Assembly (NCBI RefSeq): GCF_036867195.1
Contig: NZ_JBAJII010000001.1
Coordinates: forward strand, 806,001 to 870,000
Direction: 5' to 3'
Length of the DNA stretch: 64,000 nt
Source of the DNA: Arthrobacter sp. Soc17.1.1.1
GTDB taxonomy: Bacteria > Actinomycetota > Actinomycetes > Actinomycetales > Micrococcaceae
Each line of letters opens with the position of its first letter. Within the stretch, counting starts at the first letter, position 1. The notes beneath the pieces are model-generated. The model saw only the letters and a program-made list of their open reading frames with translations, searched no databases and was not told the DNA's origin. Positions 4,437 through 14,659 of this stretch are shown here, piece after piece. Both the position numbers and the translations under genes were made by a program.

Positions 4437-5471
4437 CTAGGCCCGCAGGGCAGGGGTGGTCGCCCGCACCACGAGTTCCGGCGGCAGCAGCACGTCCTGC
4501 GTGGCTTCACCCCTCAGGGTCCTCAGGAGGGCATCCACGCTCAGTGCTCCCATCGCCCTGAGATCACTCCGCACGGAGGTGAGGGGGACGGGAAGCGTGG
4601 CAGCCAGGTCGAGATCGTTGTATCCGATGAGCGCCACGTCCTCGCCGACCCGCTTCCCGGCGTCGCGGATGGCCCCCATGGCGCCGAGGGCTAGGAGGTC
4701 GTGGACGGCGAAGACGGCCGTCGGTGGATCGGGTAGCCGCATGAGCTGGTTGCCCGCCTCCAGCCCCGAGGGCGTGCTGAACGTCGACTGTACGACGGAG
4801 GAATCGGGCAGGGGGTGGCCGGCGGCTTCGAAGGCCCGGCGGAAACCGAGGGTGCGCTCGCGGCCCGTACTCGCCAGCTGGTCCCCGGCGATGACGCCGA
4901 CCCGACGGTGTCCGAGGCCGAGCAGGTGCTCGGCGGCGAGCTGCCCGCCACGGTAGTCGTCCGTGGTGACGGACAGGTGCCCCTCGAGCTTGCGCATGAC
5001 GAGCACGTAGGGGACGCCGCGGGCCCGGAGCTCATGGGCGGCGGTGTCCCCGATGTGGGAATCGCCGATGATGACGCCGTCGATCCGCCGCGAGAGCATC
5101 GCGTCCAGGCGCACACGGCGGTGCTCCGGGTCGTCCAGGGTGTTGGCGACGACGGTCCCGTAGCCGGCAGCACCGGCCGCGGCGTCGATGCTCTCGTAGA
5201 TCGACGCGAGCACGAGGTCGGTCAGGCGGGGCACGAGGACCCCGATCAACCGGGACGACCCGGTCCGGAGCCCCGCCGCACCGACATCGCGCCGGTAGCC
5301 GAGGGCAGCCGCGAGGTCGCGTACCCGCCGCACGGTGTCGGTGCTGATACCGGCCGGGTCGTCACTCAGCGCGCGCGACGCCGTGGAGACATGGACCTGC
5401 GCGTGGCGTGCGACGGTCGTGAGCGTCACGCGGGGTGCCCGTGCCGGCTGCCCGCTGGGATCTTCCTTCAT
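4437..5471 (-). CDS. LacI-family transcriptional regulator (amide cassette)
   Basis: The 344-residue protein has an N-terminal LacI helix-turn-helix (about residues 14-40, VTLTTVARHAQVHVSTASRAL) followed by a periplasmic-binding-protein-like effector domain (about 70-340). An ATG at 5471 is chosen because it places the HTH at the usual distance from the N terminus; the frame stays open upstream to 5546 without family similarity. The gene is divergent from the carbamoylase/DUF5058 cassette starting at 5687. The region between them holds two CG- or GG-centred palindromes typical of LacI operators, so it probably represses that cassette and itself. The effector is unknown; a small ureido or amide compound would fit the context. 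Confidence 0.88.
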   Translation of the reverse strand: MKEDPSGQPARAPRVTLTTVARHAQVHVSTASRALSDDPAGISTDTVRRVRDLAAALGYRRDVGAAGLRTGSSRLIGVLVPRLTDLVLASIYESIDAAAGAAGYGTVVANTLDDPEHRRVRLDAMLSRRIDGVIIGDSHIGDTAAHELRARGVPYVLVMRKLEGHLSVTTDDYRGGQLAAEHLLGLGHRRVGVIAGDQLASTGRERTLGFRRAFEAAGHPLPDSSVVQSTFSTPSGLEAGNQLMRLPDPPTAVFAVHDLLALGAMGAIRDAGKRVGEDVALIGYNDLDLAATLPVPLTSVRSDLRAMGALSVDALLRTLRGEATQDVLLPPELVVRATTPALRA

Positions 5472-5524
5472 CGCCCTGAGTCTAGGACTGCAACGGCTCC
5501 GCGTGTCGCCCTTCGCCGGATCTT

Positions 5525-5538
5525 CGCAAAGGTTTGCG
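5525..5538. promoter_or_regulatory. LacI-type operator, lacI-proximal site
   Basis: CGCAAAGGTTTGCG is an inverted repeat of 6-bp arms around GG. Its half site CGCAAA is shared with the second palindrome at 5656-5671. It lies 54 nt upstream of the LacI start codon, suited to autoregulation. The palindrome is direct observation; assignment to this regulator is inference. Confidence 0.6.
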
Positions 5539-5549
5539 CCGGGCACAGC

Positions 5550-5574
5550 GTGAAAGGCGCGGTGCAGCTTTCAC
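5550..5574. promoter_or_regulatory. Spaced inverted repeat GTGAAAG-N11-CTTTCAC
   Basis: Two perfect 7-bp arms are separated by 11 bp, giving an 18-bp centre-to-centre spacing that would put both arms on nearly the same DNA face. It lies just upstream of the promoter candidate of the carbamoylase cassette. It differs from the LacI-type sites and could bind a second, perhaps global, regulator. Confidence 0.4.
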
Positions 5575-5586
5575 CTCGCGGAAACA

Positions 5587-5615
5587 TTGACGAAACCCGG
5601 CGCCTGTAGTGTGAT
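5587..5615 (+). promoter_or_regulatory. Candidate sigma-70 promoter of the carbamoylase cassette
   Basis: TTGACG (5587-5592) and TGTGAT (5610-5615) are separated by 17 bp. Transcription would start near 5622, so the LacI-type palindrome at 5656-5671 would lie downstream of the start site, where a repressor could block elongation. The -10 is weak. Confidence 0.45.
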
Positions 5616-5655
5616 GAGCACCACATCCGCCCCGCTGATCTTCCTGCAGCGGAGT

Positions 5656-5671
5656 GCGCAAACGATTGCAC
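5656..5671. promoter_or_regulatory. LacI-type operator, hydrolase-proximal site
   Basis: GCGCAAACGATTGCAC is a CG-centred imperfect palindrome, with 6 of 8 half-site positions matching, ending 15 nt before the hydrolase start codon. Its centre is 132 bp from that of the related palindrome at 5525-5538. A pair of sites at such a distance is compatible with repression by looping. Confidence 0.6.
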
Positions 5672-5686
5672 GAAGGACTGATGTTC

Positions 5687-6940
5687 ATGTCCCAGACGAT
5701 CTTCTCCGAGACCCTCGACCGGATCCGTACCGGCGTGGCGGAGCTCTCCTCCTTCCGCGCCGGCGACCGTCCGGGCTGGACCCGGGAGGTGTTCAGCGAG
5801 CCGTACAGGGCGTCGCGGGACTGGACAGTCGCCCGCATGCGTGAAGCAGGACTCGAGGTCGGGACGGACGCCGCCGGCAACATCGTGGGCCGCCTGGCGG
5901 GTCGCACGCCGTCCGCTCCGGCGCTCGTCACCGGGTCGCATACCGACACGGTGGACGGCGGCGGGCGTTTCGACGGCATCGTCGGCGTCCTCGGATCCAT
6001 CGAGGCCGCCCGGCTACTACAGGAATCCGGGAGGCAGCTCGAACGGGACCTGCTGGTGGTCGACTTCCTCGGCGAGGAATCGAACGTCTTCGGCCTCAGC
6101 TGCCTCGGGAGCCGCTCCGCGGCGCAGGAACTGACGCCGTCGGACCTCGACCGGCGCGACTACCGCGGCATCACGCTCGGACAGGCGTACACCGACTACG
6201 GGCTCGACCCCTCCCGGCTGCTGGACGTCCCCTGGGCGAAGGACCCCCTGCACGCCTTCGTGGAGCTGCACATCGAGCAGGGCCCCACCCTCGAGAAGCG
6301 GGGTCTTCCACTGGGCGTCGTCACCGCCATCACCGGGATCGAGCGCTTCATCGCCACCTTCGCCGGGTCTGCCGATCATGCGGGAACCACCTCGATGGAG
6401 GACCGCCGGGACGCCATGATCGCCGCCGCCGAGGCCGTCCTCGCGGTGCGCGCCGAAGGCTGCGGGGCGCCCACACACGGCGTCGCGACATCGACCCGCG
6501 TGGAATCGGAATCCCGGTCACCGAACGTGGTGCCGTCCCTCGTCCGCATGTACAGCGAGGTCCGCAGCGTCGACTCCTCCTGGCTGTCCGGCGTCAAGGG
6601 ACGCCTCACGGCGGAGATCGCCGCGAAGGCGACCGATCTCGGCGTCGACGTCGGCTTCGAGTGGTCGACGGACAACACCGTGGTCCAGGCGGACCGGGGC
6701 GTGCAGGATGTCGCGGGCGCAGCCGCCGACGCCCTCGGGCTGCCGTGGATGCCGATCCCCAGCGGGGCCACGCACGACGCCGTGCACATGGCCTCCCTCG
6801 CACCCATGGGCATGATCTTCATCCCCTCCAAGAACGGCAAGAGCCATTGCCCCGAGGAGTGGAGCAGTACGGAGGACATCGCCACCGGCGTGAGCGCGCT
6901 CGTCGCGACCCTCCGACGGCTCGACGGCACCGATACCTGA
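5687..6940 (+). CDS. M20 hydantoinase/carbamoylase-family amidase (AllC/HyuC-like)
   Basis: The 417-residue Zn-dependent hydrolase belongs to the group that removes carbamoyl or ureido groups (N-carbamoyl-L-amino acid hydrolase, allantoate amidohydrolase, beta-ureidopropionase). Visible motifs are GSHTDTV followed by GGGRFDGIVGV, the metal-binding EES in FLGEESNVFG, LHIEQGP, and the terminal IFIPSKNGKSHCPEEW. The ATG at 5687 is preferred because AAGGA ends about 9 nt before it; an ATG at 5681 is too close. It opens a cassette with two membrane proteins and two more amide hydrolases. The exact substrate is not determinable. LacI-type palindromes upstream suggest induction by substrate. Confidence 0.88.
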   Translation: MSQTIFSETLDRIRTGVAELSSFRAGDRPGWTREVFSEPYRASRDWTVARMREAGLEVGTDAAGNIVGRLAGRTPSAPALVTGSHTDTVDGGGRFDGIVGVLGSIEAARLLQESGRQLERDLLVVDFLGEESNVFGLSCLGSRSAAQELTPSDLDRRDYRGITLGQAYTDYGLDPSRLLDVPWAKDPLHAFVELHIEQGPTLEKRGLPLGVVTAITGIERFIATFAGSADHAGTTSMEDRRDAMIAAAEAVLAVRAEGCGAPTHGVATSTRVESESRSPNVVPSLVRMYSEVRSVDSSWLSGVKGRLTAEIAAKATDLGVDVGFEWSTDNTVVQADRGVQDVAGAAADALGLPWMPIPSGATHDAVHMASLAPMGMIFIPSKNGKSHCPEEWSSTEDIATGVSALVATLRRLDGTDT

Positions 6941-6995
6941 CCGACCGACTGACCGGCTCTTCGACCCCCACCCGCCCCTGCCGACCGGAGTTCCC

Positions 6996-7751
6996 ATGAA
7001 AACTGCACTGACTCCCGAGGGACTGTCCACGGACATCCTTGCGATCGCCAACCTGCCCGTCCTCTGGATCCTCGCCCTCGGGGTCTTCGGCGCCATCATC
7101 GTCCAGTCGCTGATCTACATGAAGGCCGCGAAGAAGGCCGGACCCGCGGCGGACATCTCACCGGAGGAGCTGCGGACGTCCTTCCGCGCAGGTGCCATCG
7201 CCGCGATCGGGCCGTCGCTGGCCGTGGTGCTGGTCAGCATCGCCCTCCTCACGCTGTTCGGCACGCCGGCCGTGCTGGTGCGGATCGGCCTCGTCGGCTC
7301 GGCCGCCACCGAATCGGCCTCCGCGAGCCTCGCTGCCGGCACCATGGGCGCCACCCTCGGCGGACCCGACTACACGCAGGCGGTGTTCGTGGTCGCCTTC
7401 ATGGCCATGAGCCTCTCCGGCGCCGGCTGGATGCTCGCGACGCTCGTGCTGACACCGATTCTGCGCAGGGGCGACACGAAGCTGCGGCGCGTCAATCCCG
7501 CCCTGATGGCCATCGTGCCGGCTGCCGCCCTCATCGGGGCCTTCGCAAGCCTCGGTATCGCCGAGCTCGGCAAGACACCGGTCCACATCCTCTCGGTCAT
7601 CGTCTCGGCCGTCACCATGGCCGTGTGCATCGTCCTCGCGAACAGGACCTCCGCGACCTGGCTGAGGGAGTGGGGCCTCGGCATCTCGATCATCGTCGGG
7701 CTGTTCGCCGCCTACATCGCCCACACCTCCGGCATGGCCCCCGCCGCCTAG
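6996..7751 (+). CDS. DUF5058 integral membrane protein
   Basis: The 251-residue protein has about seven hydrophobic segments, roughly at 20-42, 66-92, 96-120, 128-155, 170-192, 197-216 and 226-245. A conserved-looking small-residue stretch (GSAATESASASLAAGTMG, about 105-122) lies inside the membrane region. I recognise it as DUF5058, a family without an assigned function as far as I know. It sits between two M20 hydrolases and directly before a second unnamed membrane protein, so the pair is plausibly a two-subunit transporter for an amide or ureido substrate. The start has GGAG about 6 nt upstream. The transporter role is inference from context only. Confidence 0.8.
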   Translation: MKTALTPEGLSTDILAIANLPVLWILALGVFGAIIVQSLIYMKAAKKAGPAADISPEELRTSFRAGAIAAIGPSLAVVLVSIALLTLFGTPAVLVRIGLVGSAATESASASLAAGTMGATLGGPDYTQAVFVVAFMAMSLSGAGWMLATLVLTPILRRGDTKLRRVNPALMAIVPAAALIGAFASLGIAELGKTPVHILSVIVSAVTMAVCIVLANRTSATWLREWGLGISIIVGLFAAYIAHTSGMAPAA

Positions 7752-7778
7752 GCAGTACCTCACCCGAAAGGAACCACC

Positions 7779-8507
7779 ATGTCTGCTGCAGATACTGCCG
7801 TCACCTCCTCCGCATCGCTCGCCGAATTCGACCGCACCACCTCCCGCTGGGGCCAGCTCACCATGGGCACCGCCCTCCTCCTCTCCCTCGCCGCGCCCCT
7901 GTACCTCGTCTTCTTCACGGACCTGGGCATCACCGCCGGGATGATCTGGACGGCCTATCTCGCCGTCGCCGCAGCGTTCTTCGTGCTCTGGTTCGTGGAA
8001 CCCATCACCTACTACCCGGTGCTCGGCCCCGCCGCGATGTACCAGGCGTTCATGATCGGCAACATCGCCAACAAACTCCTGCCCTCGGCCCTCGTGGCAC
8101 AGGCGGCCGTCGGAGCGAAAGCCGGCACCAAGCGCGGCGAGTTCGCGGCCCTCATGGCCATCTGCGGCGCGGCGATGGTCCACGTCGTCTCGATGCTCGT
8201 GTTCGTCGGGGTCCTCGGGACCTGGCTGGTCAGCATCATCCCCACCGACATCGTCGACGTGGCGCGGCTCTACATCTTCCCGGCGATCATCGGCGGCGTC
8301 CTCGTCCAGCTGATCGTCACCATGAAGCAGCCCCGCGTGACCGTGATCGCCGTCGTCGTCGCCGTGGTGGTGCTCTTCGTCCTGGTGCCGGCGGTTCCCG
8401 CACTCGCCAAGCCGGCCACCGGCGTCGTCGTCCTGATCACCGCCGTGCTGGCCTGGTTCCTCCGCTCGCGCAAGGCGACCGCCACGCCCACCACCCTCGT
8501 CAACTAG
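7779..8507 (+). CDS. Uncharacterised multi-pass membrane protein, DUF5058 partner
   Basis: The 242-residue protein has six to seven hydrophobic segments after a polar N-terminal tail of about 25 residues. A distinctive stretch EPITYYPVLGPAAMYQAF (about 74-91) contains Pro, Tyr and Gly that could line a substrate path. I do not recognise a named family. AAAGGAACC lies just before the ATG, and the gene follows the DUF5058 gene after 27 nt, so the two proteins are probably made together. Together they give about 13-14 membrane segments, comparable with a complete secondary transporter. A channel or a membrane-bound enzyme are alternatives. Confidence 0.75.
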   Translation: MSAADTAVTSSASLAEFDRTTSRWGQLTMGTALLLSLAAPLYLVFFTDLGITAGMIWTAYLAVAAAFFVLWFVEPITYYPVLGPAAMYQAFMIGNIANKLLPSALVAQAAVGAKAGTKRGEFAALMAICGAAMVHVVSMLVFVGVLGTWLVSIIPTDIVDVARLYIFPAIIGGVLVQLIVTMKQPRVTVIAVVVAVVVLFVLVPAVPALAKPATGVVVLITAVLAWFLRSRKATATPTTLVN

Positions 8508-8538
8508 GCTCCCAGACAGACCCGCCCGAAAGGACACC

Positions 8539-9774
8539 ATGACCATCGACACCGCCGTCTTCGACCTCTCCGACGCCGACACCACCGCCATGCATGAGCT
8601 GTACCAGCACCTCCACGCCCACCCCGAGCTCTCCATGCAGGAGACGCACACGGCGGCGTTCATCCTCGAGAAACTGAACCACCTCGGCCTGGAGACCTTT
8701 CTGTGCGGGGGGACCGGCGTCGTCGGGATCCTGCGCAACGGTGACGGCCCGGTGGTCGGCTACCGCGCCGACACGGATGGCCTGCCCATCGCGGAGGACA
8801 CCGGCCTCGCCTACGCCAGCACGACGGCGGGCAATCTCGCCGACGGCACCGACGTCCCCGTGATGCACGGCTGCGGCCACGACACCCACATGACCGTGGG
8901 CCTCACCGCCGCCCAGCTGCTGGCAGAGAGCCGCGAGGCATGGTCCGGCACGGTGGTCTTCATCTTCCAGCCCGGCGAGGAGACCGGCGAGGGCGCGGAG
9001 GCGATGGTCGAGGACGGCCTGTGGGACAAGGCGCCGAAGCCGTCGATCATCTACGGGCAGCACGTGTGGCCGGGACTCGCCGGCACCGTGAACATCAGCA
9101 AGGGCACCGCCATGGCGATGGCCGACTCCTGGAAGGTGACCGTGCACGGCAAGCAGGCGCACGGCTCGCAGCCGGAGCAGTCGATCGACCCGATCGTGCT
9201 CGGCGCCCACATGGTGGTCCGCATCCAGACGATCGTCTCGCGCGAGGTGCACCCCATGAAGTCCGCTGTCGTCACGATCGGCACCTTCCACGGCGGGCTG
9301 AAGGAGAACATCATCCCGGCGTCGGCGGAGTTCACGCTCAACGTGCGGACGTTCGACGTCGACGTGCGCGAGCGCGTCCTCGGCTCGCTGCGGCGGATCA
9401 TCAGCGCGGAAGCCGCGGCGTCGGGAGCGCCGGAGCCGGTGATCGAGCAGATCACGAATTTCCCCCAGTGCTACAACGACCCTGCCTCGACGGAGGATCT
9501 GATGGCGGTTCTCGGCGAGGTGCTGGGGGAGGATGCCGTCATCGAGTCCCCGCCGGTGATGGGCAGCGAGGACTTCGGTCTCCTTGCCGAGGCCATCGGT
9601 GTACCGAGCGTCTACTGGTTCTTCGGTGGACACCCGCAGGAACTGCTCGACGGCGACGACCCCGTACCGGGAAACCACTCGCCGTACTTCGCGCCGGCGA
9701 TCGAGCCGACGCTCTCCACCGGAGTCCGGGCCGCCATGACGGCCCTGCTGTCGAAGGTCGGGACCACCGCGTGA
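8539..9774 (+). CDS. M20D-family amidohydrolase (hippurate / N-acyl amino acid hydrolase-like)
   Basis: The 411-residue cytosolic metallohydrolase carries MHGCGHDTHM (about residues 112-121), which supplies metal ligands, then QPGEETGEGAEAM (about 146-158) and NHSPYFAPAIEP near the C terminus. These are standard for peptidase M20D / IAA-amino-acid, hippurate or N-acetyl-amino-acid hydrolases. It has an AAAGGA ribosome-binding site and follows the membrane protein pair after 31 nt. Its stop overlaps the GTG start of the amidase gene by 4 nt, so translation is coupled. It may complete the breakdown of acylated or carbamoylated amino acids taken up by the cassette; the acyl group is unknown. Confidence 0.9.
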   Translation: MTIDTAVFDLSDADTTAMHELYQHLHAHPELSMQETHTAAFILEKLNHLGLETFLCGGTGVVGILRNGDGPVVGYRADTDGLPIAEDTGLAYASTTAGNLADGTDVPVMHGCGHDTHMTVGLTAAQLLAESREAWSGTVVFIFQPGEETGEGAEAMVEDGLWDKAPKPSIIYGQHVWPGLAGTVNISKGTAMAMADSWKVTVHGKQAHGSQPEQSIDPIVLGAHMVVRIQTIVSREVHPMKSAVVTIGTFHGGLKENIIPASAEFTLNVRTFDVDVRERVLGSLRRIISAEAAASGAPEPVIEQITNFPQCYNDPASTEDLMAVLGEVLGEDAVIESPPVMGSEDFGLLAEAIGVPSVYWFFGGHPQELLDGDDPVPGNHSPYFAPAIEPTLSTGVRAAMTALLSKVGTTA

Positions 9775-11192
9775 CCGGTGCGCTCTCCGACCTGTCCGCC
9801 GTCGAACTGACGGGGGCCATCCGCCGTCGGGAGGTGTCCGCACGGGAGGCACTCGAGGCGCACTTCGACCGCATCGACGCCGTCAACGGCCCGATCAACG
9901 CCGTCGTCACCGAGGACCGCGAGGGCGCCGCAGCGCTCGCAGATGCGGCCGACGAGTTGACGGCGTCGAGCGCCGACCTCCCGCCGCTGCACGGTCTGCC
10001 GATGACGCATAAGGACACGCACAACACCAGGGGACTGCGCACCACGCAGGGATCGACGGTGTTCAAGGACTTCGTGCCGACGTTCGACGACCTGATCATC
10101 GGCCGCCTGAAGAGCGCCGGAGTGGTGACGACGGGCAAGACGAACGTGCCTGAGTTCGCCGCCGGCTCGCACACCTTCAACGAGGTGTTCGGGACGACGG
10201 TCAATCCGTACGACACCACGCGCAGTGCCGGCGGCAGCAGCGGGGGAGTGGCGGCATCGATCGCCGCCCGCATCCAGCCGCTGGGCGACGGCAGCGACAT
10301 GGGCGGCTCGCTGCGCATCCCCGCGTCGTTCTGCAACGTGGTCGGGTACCGGCCGTCGATCGGCGTCGTCCCCGCCGTGCCGACGCGCAACGCCTGGGCG
10401 TGGCTCGGCCGGAACGGGCTGATGGCGCGTGATGTCGAGGACATCGCGCTGGGGATGACGGCGATCGCCGGTGCCGACCCGGCGGTTCCGTACGCCTACC
10501 CCGTGCCGGGCTCGTTCGCAGCCCCGCTGCAGCGGGACCTGACCGGGATGCGCATCGGCTGGTCACCCGATTTCGGGGTGGGCGTGCCGGTGGACCGTGA
10601 GGTACTGCGGGTCCTCGAGGGACAGCTGCAGGTCTTCGCCGACCTCGGTGCGATCGTCGAGGAGGCCGCGCCGGACCTGCGCGACGCCGACCAGGTGTTC
10701 GGTACGACGCGCGCCTTCGACTTCGTGCTGGGCCTCGGCGAGCTCGTGCGGAAGCACGGCGATGCGATCAAACCCGAGATCCGCTGGAACGTGGAGCAGG
10801 GTCTGCAGCTCACGGCGCAGGACATGGTCGACGCCGCCCTCGCCCGGACGCGGCTCGACACCAGCGTGCGGCGCTACTTCGGGACCTACGACGTCTTCGC
10901 GAGCCCGACGGCGCAGGTTCTCCCGTTCGACGCCACCGAGCGGTATCCGACGTCGGTCAACGGCGTGGAGTTCGAGACGTACCTGGACTGGATGCGTTCC
11001 GCCTGCCTGATCTCGGCGACCGGGCTGCCTGCCGTCTCGGTGCCGGCCGGCTTCAGCGAGGGTGGCCTGCCGGTCGGGCTGCAGCTCGCGATGCCGCACG
11101 GCAGCGACGTCGAACTCCTGCAGGTCGCGTATGCGTTCGAGCAGGCGACGGGGTGGGCGAAGCGGGCGCCGGAGCTGGAGGGCTTCCGCTAG
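9771..11192 (+). CDS. Amidase signature family hydrolase
   Basis: The 473-residue enzyme starts at a GTG overlapping the previous stop. It has the Ser-cisSer-Lys triad of the amidase signature family: Lys81 in MTHKDTHN, Ser156 in SAGGSSGG and Ser180 in GSDMGGSLRIPA. The spacings (75 and 24) match those in GatA. No gatB or gatC is adjacent, so it is a catabolic amidase rather than the tRNA amidotransferase subunit. It would hydrolyse a carboxamide to acid plus ammonia, fitting with the two M20 hydrolases of the same cassette. Its end overlaps by 4 nt the convergent Lrp-type gene. Confidence 0.9.
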   Translation: MTGALSDLSAVELTGAIRRREVSAREALEAHFDRIDAVNGPINAVVTEDREGAAALADAADELTASSADLPPLHGLPMTHKDTHNTRGLRTTQGSTVFKDFVPTFDDLIIGRLKSAGVVTTGKTNVPEFAAGSHTFNEVFGTTVNPYDTTRSAGGSSGGVAASIAARIQPLGDGSDMGGSLRIPASFCNVVGYRPSIGVVPAVPTRNAWAWLGRNGLMARDVEDIALGMTAIAGADPAVPYAYPVPGSFAAPLQRDLTGMRIGWSPDFGVGVPVDREVLRVLEGQLQVFADLGAIVEEAAPDLRDADQVFGTTRAFDFVLGLGELVRKHGDAIKPEIRWNVEQGLQLTAQDMVDAALARTRLDTSVRRYFGTYDVFASPTAQVLPFDATERYPTSVNGVEFETYLDWMRSACLISATGLPAVSVPAGFSEGGLPVGLQLAMPHGSDVELLQVAYAFEQATGWAKRAPELEGFR

Positions 11193-12238
11193 CGCCGGAG
11201 CAGACCCTCGACCTGGTTCCCGATCAGCACCCCGTCCCGGTCCATCCAGTAACGCCGCAGGACACTCAGTCCCACGCAGGTATCCATGGACTGGACTCCC
11301 GGCAGTGCCCCGATCTCCTCGGTGATGAAGTGGGCCAGTTCTGCAGGCCCGGAGAAGACGCCGTTGTAGATGACCGATGCCTTGCCGGTGACCATCGACA
11401 CCATGCGGGCCGATTTCTGCGTGCTCAGCTCGTCCAGCACGGTGGCGATGGATCGGGGCTTGAGCTGGAGGGAGATGATGGCGTTGAGGGGGAACCCGGC
11501 AGCTGCGGGTTCGACTTCGACACGTGGTGACACGGCGCCGCTGCCCAGCAGAAGCTGCATCCCCCGGTAGGCCGACGAGTTGCTGATGCCGAGCTGTCGA
11601 GCGGCCTCGGCCGCGGAGATCCGGGCATTCCCGCCAAGCTCCGCCATGATCCGCACTTCCACGTCGCTCAGGTCCTCGAGCCCGCCGATCGGTGGCCTGT
11701 TCACGGGGACGACGTACGTCTGTAGCGCAGCCTGCTGCTCGCTGGACAGGCGCTGCAGGCGCCATGACTGTCCCACCCGCTGGGATTCGAGGACCAGCTG
11801 GCTCTCCGTCGAGGCCACCCCGGGGATCGACGGAATGGTCCGGGTGAGGAGCTCGTCGATATCGGTCCCGTGCAGGGGGAAGAGATCCGCATAGATGTCG
11901 GCACTCCCGGTCGTGAGCAGGAGGAACTGGATCTCCGGGATCGCTTTCAGCGCCACGGCGACGTCGCGCGCCCTGCCGGGGGTGCACCTGAACCACAGCT
12001 GCCGGGGATTCCCCGAGGTGACGAGCGGCCAGGCGAAGCGCCCGATGACCCTCACCAGTCGGTCGCGCTGGAGGCGGTTGAGCCGACGCGTGATGGTGCT
12101 CGTGGGTTCGTCGAGTATCTCGGCGAGGGCGTTCGCCGGCACCCGGGGTGCGTGCTGCAAGGCGGCAACGATATCGAGATCGGTCTCGTCCATCGCGGCG
12201 GGGCGGCTCGAGGGCTGCAGGGTGGGTGCTGCGGTCAT
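11189..12238 (-). CDS. Tandem-module Lrp/AsnC-family regulator
   Basis: The 349-residue protein is about twice the normal Lrp length and contains two HTH modules: one at about 16-60 (DLDIVAALQHAPRVPANALA) and one at about 188-235 (AELGGNARISAAEAARQLGI). Each is followed by a region resembling the Lrp ligand-binding (RAM) domain. The ATG at 12238 places HTH1 at the N terminus; the upstream in-frame extension enters the AT-rich promoter region and is not coding-like. It is divergent from the imidase-like operon at 12426, with a 30-bp AT-rich palindrome between them, so it very likely regulates that operon in response to an amino-acid-like ligand. Confidence 0.88.
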   Translation of the reverse strand: MTAAPTLQPSSRPAAMDETDLDIVAALQHAPRVPANALAEILDEPTSTITRRLNRLQRDRLVRVIGRFAWPLVTSGNPRQLWFRCTPGRARDVAVALKAIPEIQFLLLTTGSADIYADLFPLHGTDIDELLTRTIPSIPGVASTESQLVLESQRVGQSWRLQRLSSEQQAALQTYVVPVNRPPIGGLEDLSDVEVRIMAELGGNARISAAEAARQLGISNSSAYRGMQLLLGSGAVSPRVEVEPAAAGFPLNAIISLQLKPRSIATVLDELSTQKSARMVSMVTGKASVIYNGVFSGPAELAHFITEEIGALPGVQSMDTCVGLSVLRRYWMDRDGVLIGNQVEGLLRR

Positions 12239-12306
12239 GATGTCGAGACTACAGGCGGGTTGCTCAATCCTCAGCAGTTGCGCGCAAGCTTTCCTCAGTT
12301 GCTCGG

Positions 12307-12336
12307 ACATATTTGAACGAATTGTTCGAAATATGT
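12307..12336. promoter_or_regulatory. AT-rich Lrp-type operator
   Basis: The 30-bp element has perfect 8-bp arms ACATATTT (12307-12314) and AAATATGT (12329-12336), with nested GAAC/GTTC and a central AATT. It is a conspicuous AT island in GC-rich DNA and abuts the -35 of the neighbouring promoter. AT-rich palindromes in divergent promoters are the usual binding sites of Lrp/AsnC proteins. Confidence 0.65.
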
Positions 12337-12364
12337 TGCCTACTTGAATGAACAGGCCTAAGTT
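12336..12364 (+). promoter_or_regulatory. Candidate promoter of the imidase-like operon
   Basis: TTGCCT (12336-12341) and TAAGTT (12359-12364) are separated by 17 bp. Transcription would begin about 55 nt before the ATG at 12426. The upstream palindrome overlaps the first base of the -35, compatible with activation or repression by the divergent Lrp-type protein. Confidence 0.5.
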
Positions 12365-12425
12365 GGTCGTGAGACGCACGCCACACGGACCGTTGCGCGG
12401 TGCCTCTACCATCACGGGAGAAGAG

Positions 12426-13349
12426 ATGACCATGACTGTTGCAGAACCCTGGCGCTGGCCCGAGGAGACGTGGAGGAGCCACGTCGAACAGGTTCGTGCA
12501 GGACGATCGCTCGTCGATGCCGATCAGGCACGACGCTGGAAGGACGGAGCGAAAGCAGCCGTCCTGTTCTCCTTCGACTCCGACCACGAGACTCCCTCAC
12601 TGCGCGACGGCGAGACCTCGCCGGGGCGAATGGCGCAGGGTGAGTACGGTGCGCGGGTAGCCGTACCGCGTATCCTCGATCTGCTCGGGCGGTACGAGGT
12701 GCCGTCGTCCTTCTACATCCCGGCCGTCTGCGCACTCCTGCGGCCGGACGAGGTGCCCGCCTATGTCGACGCCGGCCACGAGGTGGCCGTCCACGGCTGG
12801 ATCCACGAACGGAACACCCAGCTCACGTACGAGCAGGAACTGGATCTGCTGGGCAGGGCCCTCGGGGTCCTCGAGGAACAATCCGGGCAACGGCCGGTCG
12901 GCATCCGCACGCCGTCCTGGGACTTCTCCGACTCGACCCTGCGGGTCATCCGCGAGCTCGGGTTCCTGTACGACTCCTCCTTGATGGCCGATGACGAACC
13001 CTACGAGCTCCTGGCCGAGGGGGAGCCCACCGGCATCATCGAGATCCCGGTGGAGTGGATCCGCGATGATGCGCCGTATCTCATGATGGACCGCTTCGCG
13101 TCGCTGCGGCCGTACATGGCGCCACGCCAGCTCGTCCAGATCTGGAAGGACGAGTTCGACGCCGCCTATGCCGCGGGAGGTGTCTTCCAGCTGACGCTGC
13201 ACCCCCACATCATCGGGCACCGATCACGCCTCGTGGTACTCGAGGAGCTCCTCCAGCACATCCGCACGCACGATGACGTCTGGGTCACTACGCACGCCGA
13301 GCTCGCCCACCATCTCCGTCCCGCACTGACCTCCGAGGAAGCCCGATGA
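12426..13349 (+). CDS. NodB-like polysaccharide deacetylase family protein, probable imidase/allantoinase-type hydrolase
   Basis: The 307-residue cytosolic protein has no signal peptide and a NodB-type fold. FSFDSDHE (about 42-49) gives a putative metal-binding Asp pair, PSSFYIPAV is the second strand motif, and HEVAVHGWIHE (about 118-128) supplies histidines. The HGW-x-H pattern resembles the cytosolic PuuE/HpPgdA/imidase branch, which opens cyclic amides, more than cell-wall deacetylases. GGGAGAAG precedes the ATG at 12426; a second ATG at 12432 is possible. It starts a five-gene operon with a transporter and dehydrogenases, supporting a role in uptake and ring opening of a cyclic imide or ureide. 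The substrate is inference. Confidence 0.8.
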   Translation: MTMTVAEPWRWPEETWRSHVEQVRAGRSLVDADQARRWKDGAKAAVLFSFDSDHETPSLRDGETSPGRMAQGEYGARVAVPRILDLLGRYEVPSSFYIPAVCALLRPDEVPAYVDAGHEVAVHGWIHERNTQLTYEQELDLLGRALGVLEEQSGQRPVGIRTPSWDFSDSTLRVIRELGFLYDSSLMADDEPYELLAEGEPTGIIEIPVEWIRDDAPYLMMDRFASLRPYMAPRQLVQIWKDEFDAAYAAGGVFQLTLHPHIIGHRSRLVVLEELLQHIRTHDDVWVTTHAELAHHLRPALTSEEAR

Positions 13350-14659
13350 GCACAGAAACCACCGCCACGGCGGTTCACGAGACGAAACTCAGCGCCCGCG
13401 GGCGGAAGGCCATCATCGCGGGCGGTATCGGCAACGCCGTCGAGTGGGTCGACTGGGCCGTCTACACGACGTTCTCGTCGATCTTCGCGCACCACTTCTT
13501 CCCGCCGGGCGACCCGGTGGCGGCGCTGCTCGCCACCCTTGCGATCTTCGCCGTCGGATTCGTCATGCGCCCCGTCGGTGCCGCGGTCATGGGAACCTAT
13601 GCCGACCGCCACGGCCGCAAGAAGGGCCTGGTTCTCACCATCGGCATGATGGCGGGAGCCACCGCCATCATCGGCTTCGCGCCGACGTACGAGTCGGTAG
13701 GGATCCTCGCCCCGATCATCCTGGTGATCGCCCGGATGATCCAGGGCTTCTCGGCCGGTGGGGAATTCGGCTCGTCCTCCGCGTTCCTGGTCGAGTCGGC
13801 AGCCCCCAAACGCCGGGCGTTCGCCGGTTCGTGGCAGCAGGTCTCTGTCGGCGCCGGCGTGCTCATCGCCTCCGGGATGGGCGCGATCATCACCTCCACC
13901 CTGTCTCCCGAGGCGCTGGACAGCTGGGGCTGGCGCCTCGCCTTCATCGTCGCCGCCCTGCTGGGTCTCGTCGGGCTGTGGCTGCGCTCGTCGGTCGAGG
14001 AGACCGATTCGTTCACCACGGCCAAGGCGCAGGCGGAGGCATCCACCGAACAGCGCCGCAACTCGCTCTTCACGATGTTCGTGAAACACCCGAAGGCGGC
14101 GCTCAGGGTCTTCGGCATCACCATCGCCGGCACACTCCTCTACTACATGTGGGTGTCCTACATGCCCACGTACGCCGCCGTCGCGACGGGGATCCCGCTC
14201 AATCAGGCGCTCACCGCCAACTTCATCGCCGTCGGAGTGTTCCTGGTGCTCCTGCCGTTCGCCGGGATCCTGTCCGACAGGATCGGACGCAAGCCCACCA
14301 TGAGCGCCTTCGCGGGCGGATTCCTCCTGTTCTCCTGGCCGGCTTTCGCCCTGCTGAACGGCAACTTCTGGATGCTGCTCCTCATCGAGCTGATCGGAAT
14401 CGTCCTGCTGCTGGGCTACTCCGCGAATTGCGCCGTCATCATGGCCGAGCAGTTTCCACCCGAGGTCCGGGCCACGGGTATCGGTTTGCCCTACGCCCTC
14501 GCCGTCGCGATCTTCGGTGGGACGGCGCCCTACATCACGACCTGGATGAACACGAACGGGTATGGCGGGCTCGTGTGGGTCTATTGCGCCGTCGCCGCCG
14601 CGATCGGTCTGGTCGTGTATCTGACGATGCCCGAGACGAAGGGGAAGGCACTCGATTGA
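13346..14659 (+). CDS. MHS-family MFS transporter (metabolite:H+ symporter)
   Basis: The 437-residue protein has 12 hydrophobic segments. Hallmarks of the MHS subfamily are GGIGNAVEWVDWAVYTTFSS in TM1 and the loop 2-3 motif GTYADRHGRKKG (about residues 82-93), with a matching DRIGRKPTMS in the second half. It overlaps the imidase-like gene by 4 nt (ATGA), showing translational coupling. Members import organic acids, betaines or amino-acid-like solutes with protons. Here it probably carries the substrate of the first enzyme or a downstream acid. It resembles the transporter fragment at the left edge of the window but lies in an independent operon. Confidence 0.9.
   Translation: MSTETTATAVHETKLSARGRKAIIAGGIGNAVEWVDWAVYTTFSSIFAHHFFPPGDPVAALLATLAIFAVGFVMRPVGAAVMGTYADRHGRKKGLVLTIGMMAGATAIIGFAPTYESVGILAPIILVIARMIQGFSAGGEFGSSSAFLVESAAPKRRAFAGSWQQVSVGAGVLIASGMGAIITSTLSPEALDSWGWRLAFIVAALLGLVGLWLRSSVEETDSFTTAKAQAEASTEQRRNSLFTMFVKHPKAALRVFGITIAGTLLYYMWVSYMPTYAAVATGIPLNQALTANFIAVGVFLVLLPFAGILSDRIGRKPTMSAFAGGFLLFSWPAFALLNGNFWMLLLIELIGIVLLLGYSANCAVIMAEQFPPEVRATGIGLPYALAVAIFGGTAPYITTWMNTNGYGGLVWVYCAVAAAIGLVVYLTMPETKGKALD

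Follow-up and report, generated by a model that had tools for sequence, protein, structure and literature searches.

The window analysed here, a 64,000-nucleotide stretch of Arthrobacter sp. Soc17.1.1.1 (contig NZ_JBAJII010000001.1, positions 806,001 to 870,000), contains a cassette in which a LacI-family regulator gene faces five structural genes; these encode a hydantoinase/carbamoylase-family M20 hydrolase (hereafter the carbamoylase), a DUF5058 membrane protein, an unnamed multi-pass membrane protein (hereafter the partner), an M20D aminoacylase-type hydrolase and an amidase-signature enzyme. DUF5058 and the partner are a near-obligate pair and constitute one unit. We propose that the two proteins together form an importer, each supplying one subunit, which takes up N-acyl amino acids and, in the window, also N-carbamoyl or amidated amino acids; we assign this reading a probability of about 0.5. 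The neighbours suggest the function of a carrier, in which case the pair would be a two-part membrane system that is undescribed but plausibly of a familiar kind.

The case for a single unit comes from the distribution of the two genes. In the family set (295 genomes) DUF5058 is present in 88 genomes and the partner in the identical 88; at all 113 DUF5058 places in this set (fragments merged) the partner lies directly 3′ on the same strand, with 43–177 bases between the two profile matches, and one extra partner fragment is located at a contig start. The phylum set (396 genomes) contains three genomes with DUF5058 above the cut-off, a single match below it (G046) being excluded from the count, and the partner occurs in exactly those three. 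Among loci from named genomes (the best 80 of 182) the pair is complete in 79, whilst the remaining locus stops at a contig end. Phyla outside the actinobacterial sets were sampled via plasmid records alone; a tblastn search with DUF5058 matched 12 such records, and in the nine examined (H4, H5 and H8 being left out), which derive from five haloarchaea, Paracoccus, Vibrio, Paenarthrobacter and Arthrobacter, the partner is always adjacent. The initial annotation had looked to conserved adjacency of the pair with M20 genes for support, and this adjacency holds across genera and in both domains of life; rare co-occurrence of the membrane genes, which it named as the contrary outcome, is the opposite of what the family set contains. 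Neither profile nor literature searches revealed another proven role for either membrane protein. The distance correlation between DUF5058 and the partner is high (132 loci, r 0.93; within Actinobacteria, r 0.87), but that between DUF5058 and M20D is just as high (r 0.94; 0.86 in Actinobacteria alone), and it therefore reflects joint inheritance rather than contact.

Some individual copies of the pair are irregular. The mobilizable plasmid pADNL2 of Paenarthrobacter ureafaciens (L088, 6681–7958) carries DUF5058 with a broken partner (the annotated piece is 79 residues long) and has no M20D match; it looks like a decaying module. A Vibrio diabolicus plasmid (L095, 8001–9441) has a DUF5058 relative with an internal stop (codon 94 of the stretch read) and an adjacent annotated partner gene, in surroundings rich in insertion sequences; this partner has a relative in Rubrivivax gelatinosus, among others. 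One of the two partner copies in genome G506 (L125, approximately 8249–8938) has TGA at the position of a Cys conserved in its relatives, which probably reflects a nonsense mutation in a redundant copy. In-frame stops seen in the partner genes of three genomes (G414, G466 and G486) proved artefactual, the profile match having overrun the true stop; a further member of their genus (G442:C16) was left out of this check. The record WNZI01000006.1 (L011), titled Vibrio cholerae strain 35D, holds an Arthrobacter-type cassette with a DUF5058 protein 93% identical to that of the window, and looks mislabelled or contaminated.

Neighbouring enzymes were counted around 80 of the 113 family places (picked so that each of the 19 genera and many multi-copy genomes were represented), the 80 named-genome loci and one additional locus (L096); these 161 loci reduce to 147 non-redundant loci at 99% identity. 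Gene calling relied on a crude script, and a neighbour was scored on a tblastn match (E <= 1e-15) anywhere in the stretch, up to 9 kb on each side, such that distant homologues are included. In 135 of the 147 loci the gene immediately 3′ of the partner is M20D. Homologues of the AsnC-type regulator (80 loci), the amidase (76), the carbamoylase (26, of which seven are just 32–44% identical) and LacI (24) are less constant. The order DUF5058–partner–M20 is kept in the five haloarchaeal loci, whereas in Paracoccus the M20 enzyme comes first. Chance association of the cassette genes is ruled out by this recurrence together with the conserved gene order, the same order as in the window being kept in its close relatives. 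Of the 12 loci lacking M20D, three (L017, L073, L079) end with the contig, and six have the amidase (L045, L054, L064, L066 with its near-copy L115, L118 and L142). To judge by these enzymes, what stays constant is that an amino acid is set free from an amide.

The carbamoylase is found directly 5′ of DUF5058 in 19 of the 147 loci, and its rarity beside the near-constant M20D marks it as a local extra in the window. Ureido or carbamoyl compounds, which the initial annotation named together with amides, are not borne out by these counts as the general substrate. A ureido/carbamoyl permease, as that annotation suggested for the window's own cassette, would accord with the position of the carbamoylase there, and with its score close to that of the ErtE N-carbamyl-L-glutamate amidohydrolase profile (NF058540; 492.5 bits, below the cut-off of 520); its nearest solved structure is 3n5f, an N-carbamoyl-L-amino acid hydrolase. 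We nonetheless regard this alternative as highly improbable, given that other loci have the pair with no carbamoylase directly 5′.

Further enzymes recur near the pair. A family III CoA-transferase is present in 31 and a carboxyltransferase in 26 of the 147 loci (for example L033, L034 and L038), and these perhaps use the freed acid. C45 acyltransferase-type hydrolases, a fourth hydrolase type, were identified by PF03417 in L042, L059 and L089, and by homology in L078.

The substrate of the proposed importer is best approached through M20D. The nearest solved structure to the window M20D by sequence is that of an N-alpha-acyl-glutamine aminoacylase (N-AGA; 6slf), at 308 bits, with the next at 172. 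Using the residue roles given for N-AGA in PMC7209930 (zinc ligands, carboxylate contacts and glutamine side-chain contacts), we aligned 138 M20D rows, including that of the window, to 6slf. The zinc ligands C105, H107, E141, H168 and H370 are identical in all 138 rows, as are the carboxylate contacts R264 and N251, plus E140 and D340. The residues contacting the glutamine side chain are not maintained; N191 is replaced in all 138 rows, and D301 in all except the Paracoccus row. In the window M20D these two positions are Ser and Thr, respectively, so it is not the Gln-specific N-AGA itself, although it shares the zinc and carboxylate residues of that enzyme. Retention of the latter indicates that the substrates of the M20D enzymes are most likely N-acyl amino acids whose carboxylate is free, the preferred side chain varying between enzymes.

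In one branch the neighbourhood also hints at the amino acid released. GcvP of the glycine cleavage system is located within the stretch in nine of the 147 loci, upstream or downstream and in either orientation, and in addition in four of the five haloarchaeal loci. In A. subterraneus (L071) glyA-gcvH-gcvT-gcvP adjoin the pair, and in Rhodococcus jostii (L063) gcvP with lipA and lpdA is near it; gcv, lpdA, lipA or glyA genes are present in four of the five haloarchaeal loci, with none in L094. GcvP occurs in 293 of the 295 family genomes, mostly as a single copy, so proximity to the pair by chance should be rare; it is near DUF5058 in six of the 80 family loci, compared with a chance rate of approximately 0.5% per locus (hand arithmetic assuming about one GcvP per ~3.9 Mb genome, and ignoring shared ancestry). 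Two genomes (G619 and G653) have two GcvP genes each, one of which is beside the pair. On a quick DUF5058 tree with long branches, to be taken as a guide only, the 12 glycine-linked rows, four of them haloarchaeal, need seven changes, and for the 24 carbamoylase rows alone there are two. These neighbours make N-acylglycines the best guess for the substrates in this branch, outside which the window's own cassette lies. Literature searches returned nothing on a hippurate transporter, nor on a hippurate amidohydrolase associated with the glycine cleavage system.

The same loci bear on another possibility, namely that free amino acids (in the glycine-linked branch, glycine) pass through the pair as a carrier or channel, with the hydrolases supplying more of the same amino acid. 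That glycine cleavage genes adjoin the pair in both bacteria and haloarchaea would fit such a role. It is, however, the hydrolase and not glycine cleavage that is the constant neighbour, and the role may already be filled in three of the five haloarchaeal loci, which contain a TRIC/UPF0126 gene. PMC12173739 reports that TRIC/UPF0126 matters for the use of glycine by 11 bacteria, and predicts a glycine transporter from mutant fitness. Like the pair, TRIC/UPF0126 is a membrane protein found near glycine catabolism genes in haloarchaea, but it is encoded by a separate gene beside the pair and its profile does not match either pair member. A free amino acid carrier thus seems quite unlikely.

The two proteins themselves are hydrophobic and all-helical, with no soluble domain found by Pfam or in the predicted models. 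The window DUF5058 protein is a full-length member of its family (PF16481, 205.4 bits against a cut-off of 28.2; profile positions 1–222 of 222), the Pfam title of which gives the function as unknown; its closest named relative, from Arthrobacter agilis UMCV2, is 99% identical. It has no match in NCBIfam and, in Pfam, matches DUF5058 only. The partner belongs to no Pfam family and has a sub-threshold match only in NCBIfam; its conserved core, EPxTYxPxLG..YQAFMIGNIxNKLLP in Actinobacteria, is looser elsewhere. With 8000 candidates scored for each pair member, relatives at E <= 0.001 numbered 740 for the partner and 579 for DUF5058. Searches against known transporter profiles in Pfam and NCBIfam matched neither protein, and the literature searched contained no mention of DUF5058 or PF16481. 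The idea that the two are halves of one duplicated protein was discarded, as hhalign found no homology between them, with both profiles shallow (14 rows each).

Carriers encoded beside M20-type or dipeptidase genes have precedents in AbgT with AbgA/AbgB, and in YjiG/YjiH with IadA, and two-gene membrane systems in the two-part amino-acid exporters AzlCD and BrnFE. The likeness of the pair to AbgT, YjiG/YjiH and AzlCD lies in a carrier, putative in the present case, beside hydrolase genes or in a two-gene membrane layout; so far as profiles go, the pair differs in matching only DUF5058 in Pfam.

The pair can also be lost whilst the enzymes are retained. In one genome (G451, locus L212) LacI, the carbamoylase, M20D and the amidase are present at 82–87% identity, with only a scar between the carbamoylase and M20D. 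Comparison with A. echini (L013), to which both flanks are 94% identical, reveals a single deletion of approximately 1.38 kb, which begins near codon 30 of DUF5058 and leaves roughly the final dozen codons of the partner. Both membrane genes were lost jointly in one event, with the remaining cassette retained. Relatives exist in three states: with the full cassette, with the cassette minus the pair, and with M20D and the amidase alone.

Several results weigh against the pair being an importer that serves these enzymes. Of the 16 genomes in the same genus that lack DUF5058, ten retain M20D (85–93% identical) and the amidase without the pair, which is therefore not indispensable to the enzymes; the suggestion of the initial annotation that coupled gene ends indicate one function is too strong in the light of these genomes. 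No amide hydrolase was found in three loci with the pair (L112, L119 and L163), of which L112 has a partner gene that stops prematurely and L163 only a partial DUF5058 match. A family genome without DUF5058 (L215) has sdaA, glyA, gcvH, gcvT, gcvP and an M20D gene, the product of which is 70% identical to the window M20D, in one run; this favours a connection of M20D with glycine, but the run has no pair. Nor does the connection with glycine extend to the cassette of the window, in the genome of which the GcvP gene is at 3.72 Mb, as compared with 0.81 Mb for the cassette. Finally, fold searches with both models gave no match to a solved fold, the models being of modest confidence (predicted local distance difference test (pLDDT) 72.2 and predicted template modelling score (pTM) 0.58 for the all-helical DUF5058 model; 70.6 and 0.42, respectively, for the partner) and single-chain models of such proteins possibly being poor; the lack of a match is no proof of a new fold.

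Two further readings draw on these observations. A role other than transport, with the two proteins acting as a membrane sensor, scaffold or membrane enzyme working with the hydrolases, would be consistent with models that show no recognisable carrier fold and with the L212 deletion, but appears very unlikely, as a hydrophobic, all-helical pair beside a catabolic enzyme in both bacteria and archaea is most simply a permease. Alternatively, the pair may export what M20D cleavage yields, either the amino acid or the remaining acid, in the manner of two-part exporters. The two-gene layout and the constant hydrolase suit product efflux equally, and the genomes with M20D and the amidase alone suggest another entry route for the substrate. 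Neither protein matches an exporter profile in Pfam or NCBIfam, however, and export would be wasteful in the glycine-linked loci because the amino acid can feed glycine cleavage there; we consider efflux unlikely.

We retain import as the preferred reading, with complex formation, transport by the pair, its direction and its substrate each argued from gene content and residue conservation. In the proposed mechanism, DUF5058 and the partner would each provide a subunit of a single membrane complex, which would most likely be a secondary importer for N-substituted amino acids bearing a free carboxylate. Intracellular M20D would then hydrolyse the N-acyl amide to the free amino acid and an acid, and, in the window, N-carbamoyl amino acids and amides would be hydrolysed likewise by the carbamoylase and amidase. 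LacI may switch the cassette on from two operators located between its gene and that of the carbamoylase. In the glycine-cleavage branch, the released amino acid would most likely be glycine.

The cassette as initially described was recovered in full, with all six genes in place (Table 1). All five structural genes lie on the forward strand with intergenic gaps of 27–55 bases, except that the M20D and amidase genes overlap at 9771–9774 (GTGA).

Table 1. Features of the cassette and its immediate surroundings (window coordinates).
Feature	Position	Strand	Remarks
LacI-family regulator	4437..5546	-	Divergent; PF13377 122.7 bits and PF00356 29.1 bits, both above cut-off
Likely LacI operator GCAAAGGTTTGC	5526..5537		Overlaps called 5′ end of LacI gene
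Second likely LacI operator GCAAACGATTGC	5658..5669		Just ahead of carbamoylase start
M20 hydantoinase/carbamoylase-family hydrolase	~5690..6940	+	Start uncertain, open reading frame opens at 5654; TIGR01879 320.1 bits (cut-off 204)
DUF5058 membrane protein, pair member	6996..7751	+	PF16481 205.4 bits
Partner, unnamed multi-pass membrane protein, other pair member	7779..8507	+	No Pfam family
M20D aminoacylase-type hydrolase	8539..9774	+	TIGR01891 278.1 bits (cut-off 153.75); 6slf 308.3 bits
Amidase-signature enzyme	9771..11192	+	PF01425 315.6 bits; NF005686 468.7 bits (cut-off 465)
Two-module Lrp/AsnC-type regulator	11189..12433	-	Convergent; PF01037 and PF13412, two stretches each, within 11189-12256

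The putative operators share the pattern GCAAANSNTTGC, which has only two sites in the window, both around the LacI–carbamoylase gap (mean 0.00 in 100 shuffles). The first has a counterpart in six of seven aligned relatives, in one of these with one base changed; for the second, similar sequence is seen in several aligned relatives, most of the extracted stretches ending there. LacI would be expected to bind both, and, given the overlap of the first with its called 5′ end, the true LacI start probably lies further in.

Beyond the amidase, the next gene set (11189–14659) comprises the two-module Lrp/AsnC regulator, which probably serves this set rather than the cassette, a PuuE-like polysaccharide deacetylase and a major facilitator superfamily (MFS) metabolite:H+ symporter. 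The initial statement that no known transporter is present accordingly holds for the cassette itself, but not for this separate set, where the MFS carrier gene (13346–14659) lies 2.2 kb beyond. Of the neighbour-scanned loci, L104 alone has homologues of both the deacetylase and the MFS carrier near the cassette.

According to two reviews, N-AGA, an intracellular aminoacylase, is held to require active uptake by a transport protein that was called unknown in 2020 (PMC7209930), and the Corynebacterium transporter was still called unknown in 2025 (PMC12609316). Tentatively, and with a probability somewhat below even, the pair may represent a new two-subunit carrier family of Bacteria and Archaea that has no relation to known carriers and supplies intracellular aminoacylases with N-acyl amino acids from outside (N-acylglycines in the glycine-linked branch). 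If the importer reading is correct, it would give a function to a widespread and so far unnamed pair of membrane proteins, and would provide a candidate type of protein for the step by which the substrates of N-AGA and other intracellular aminoacylases enter the cell.

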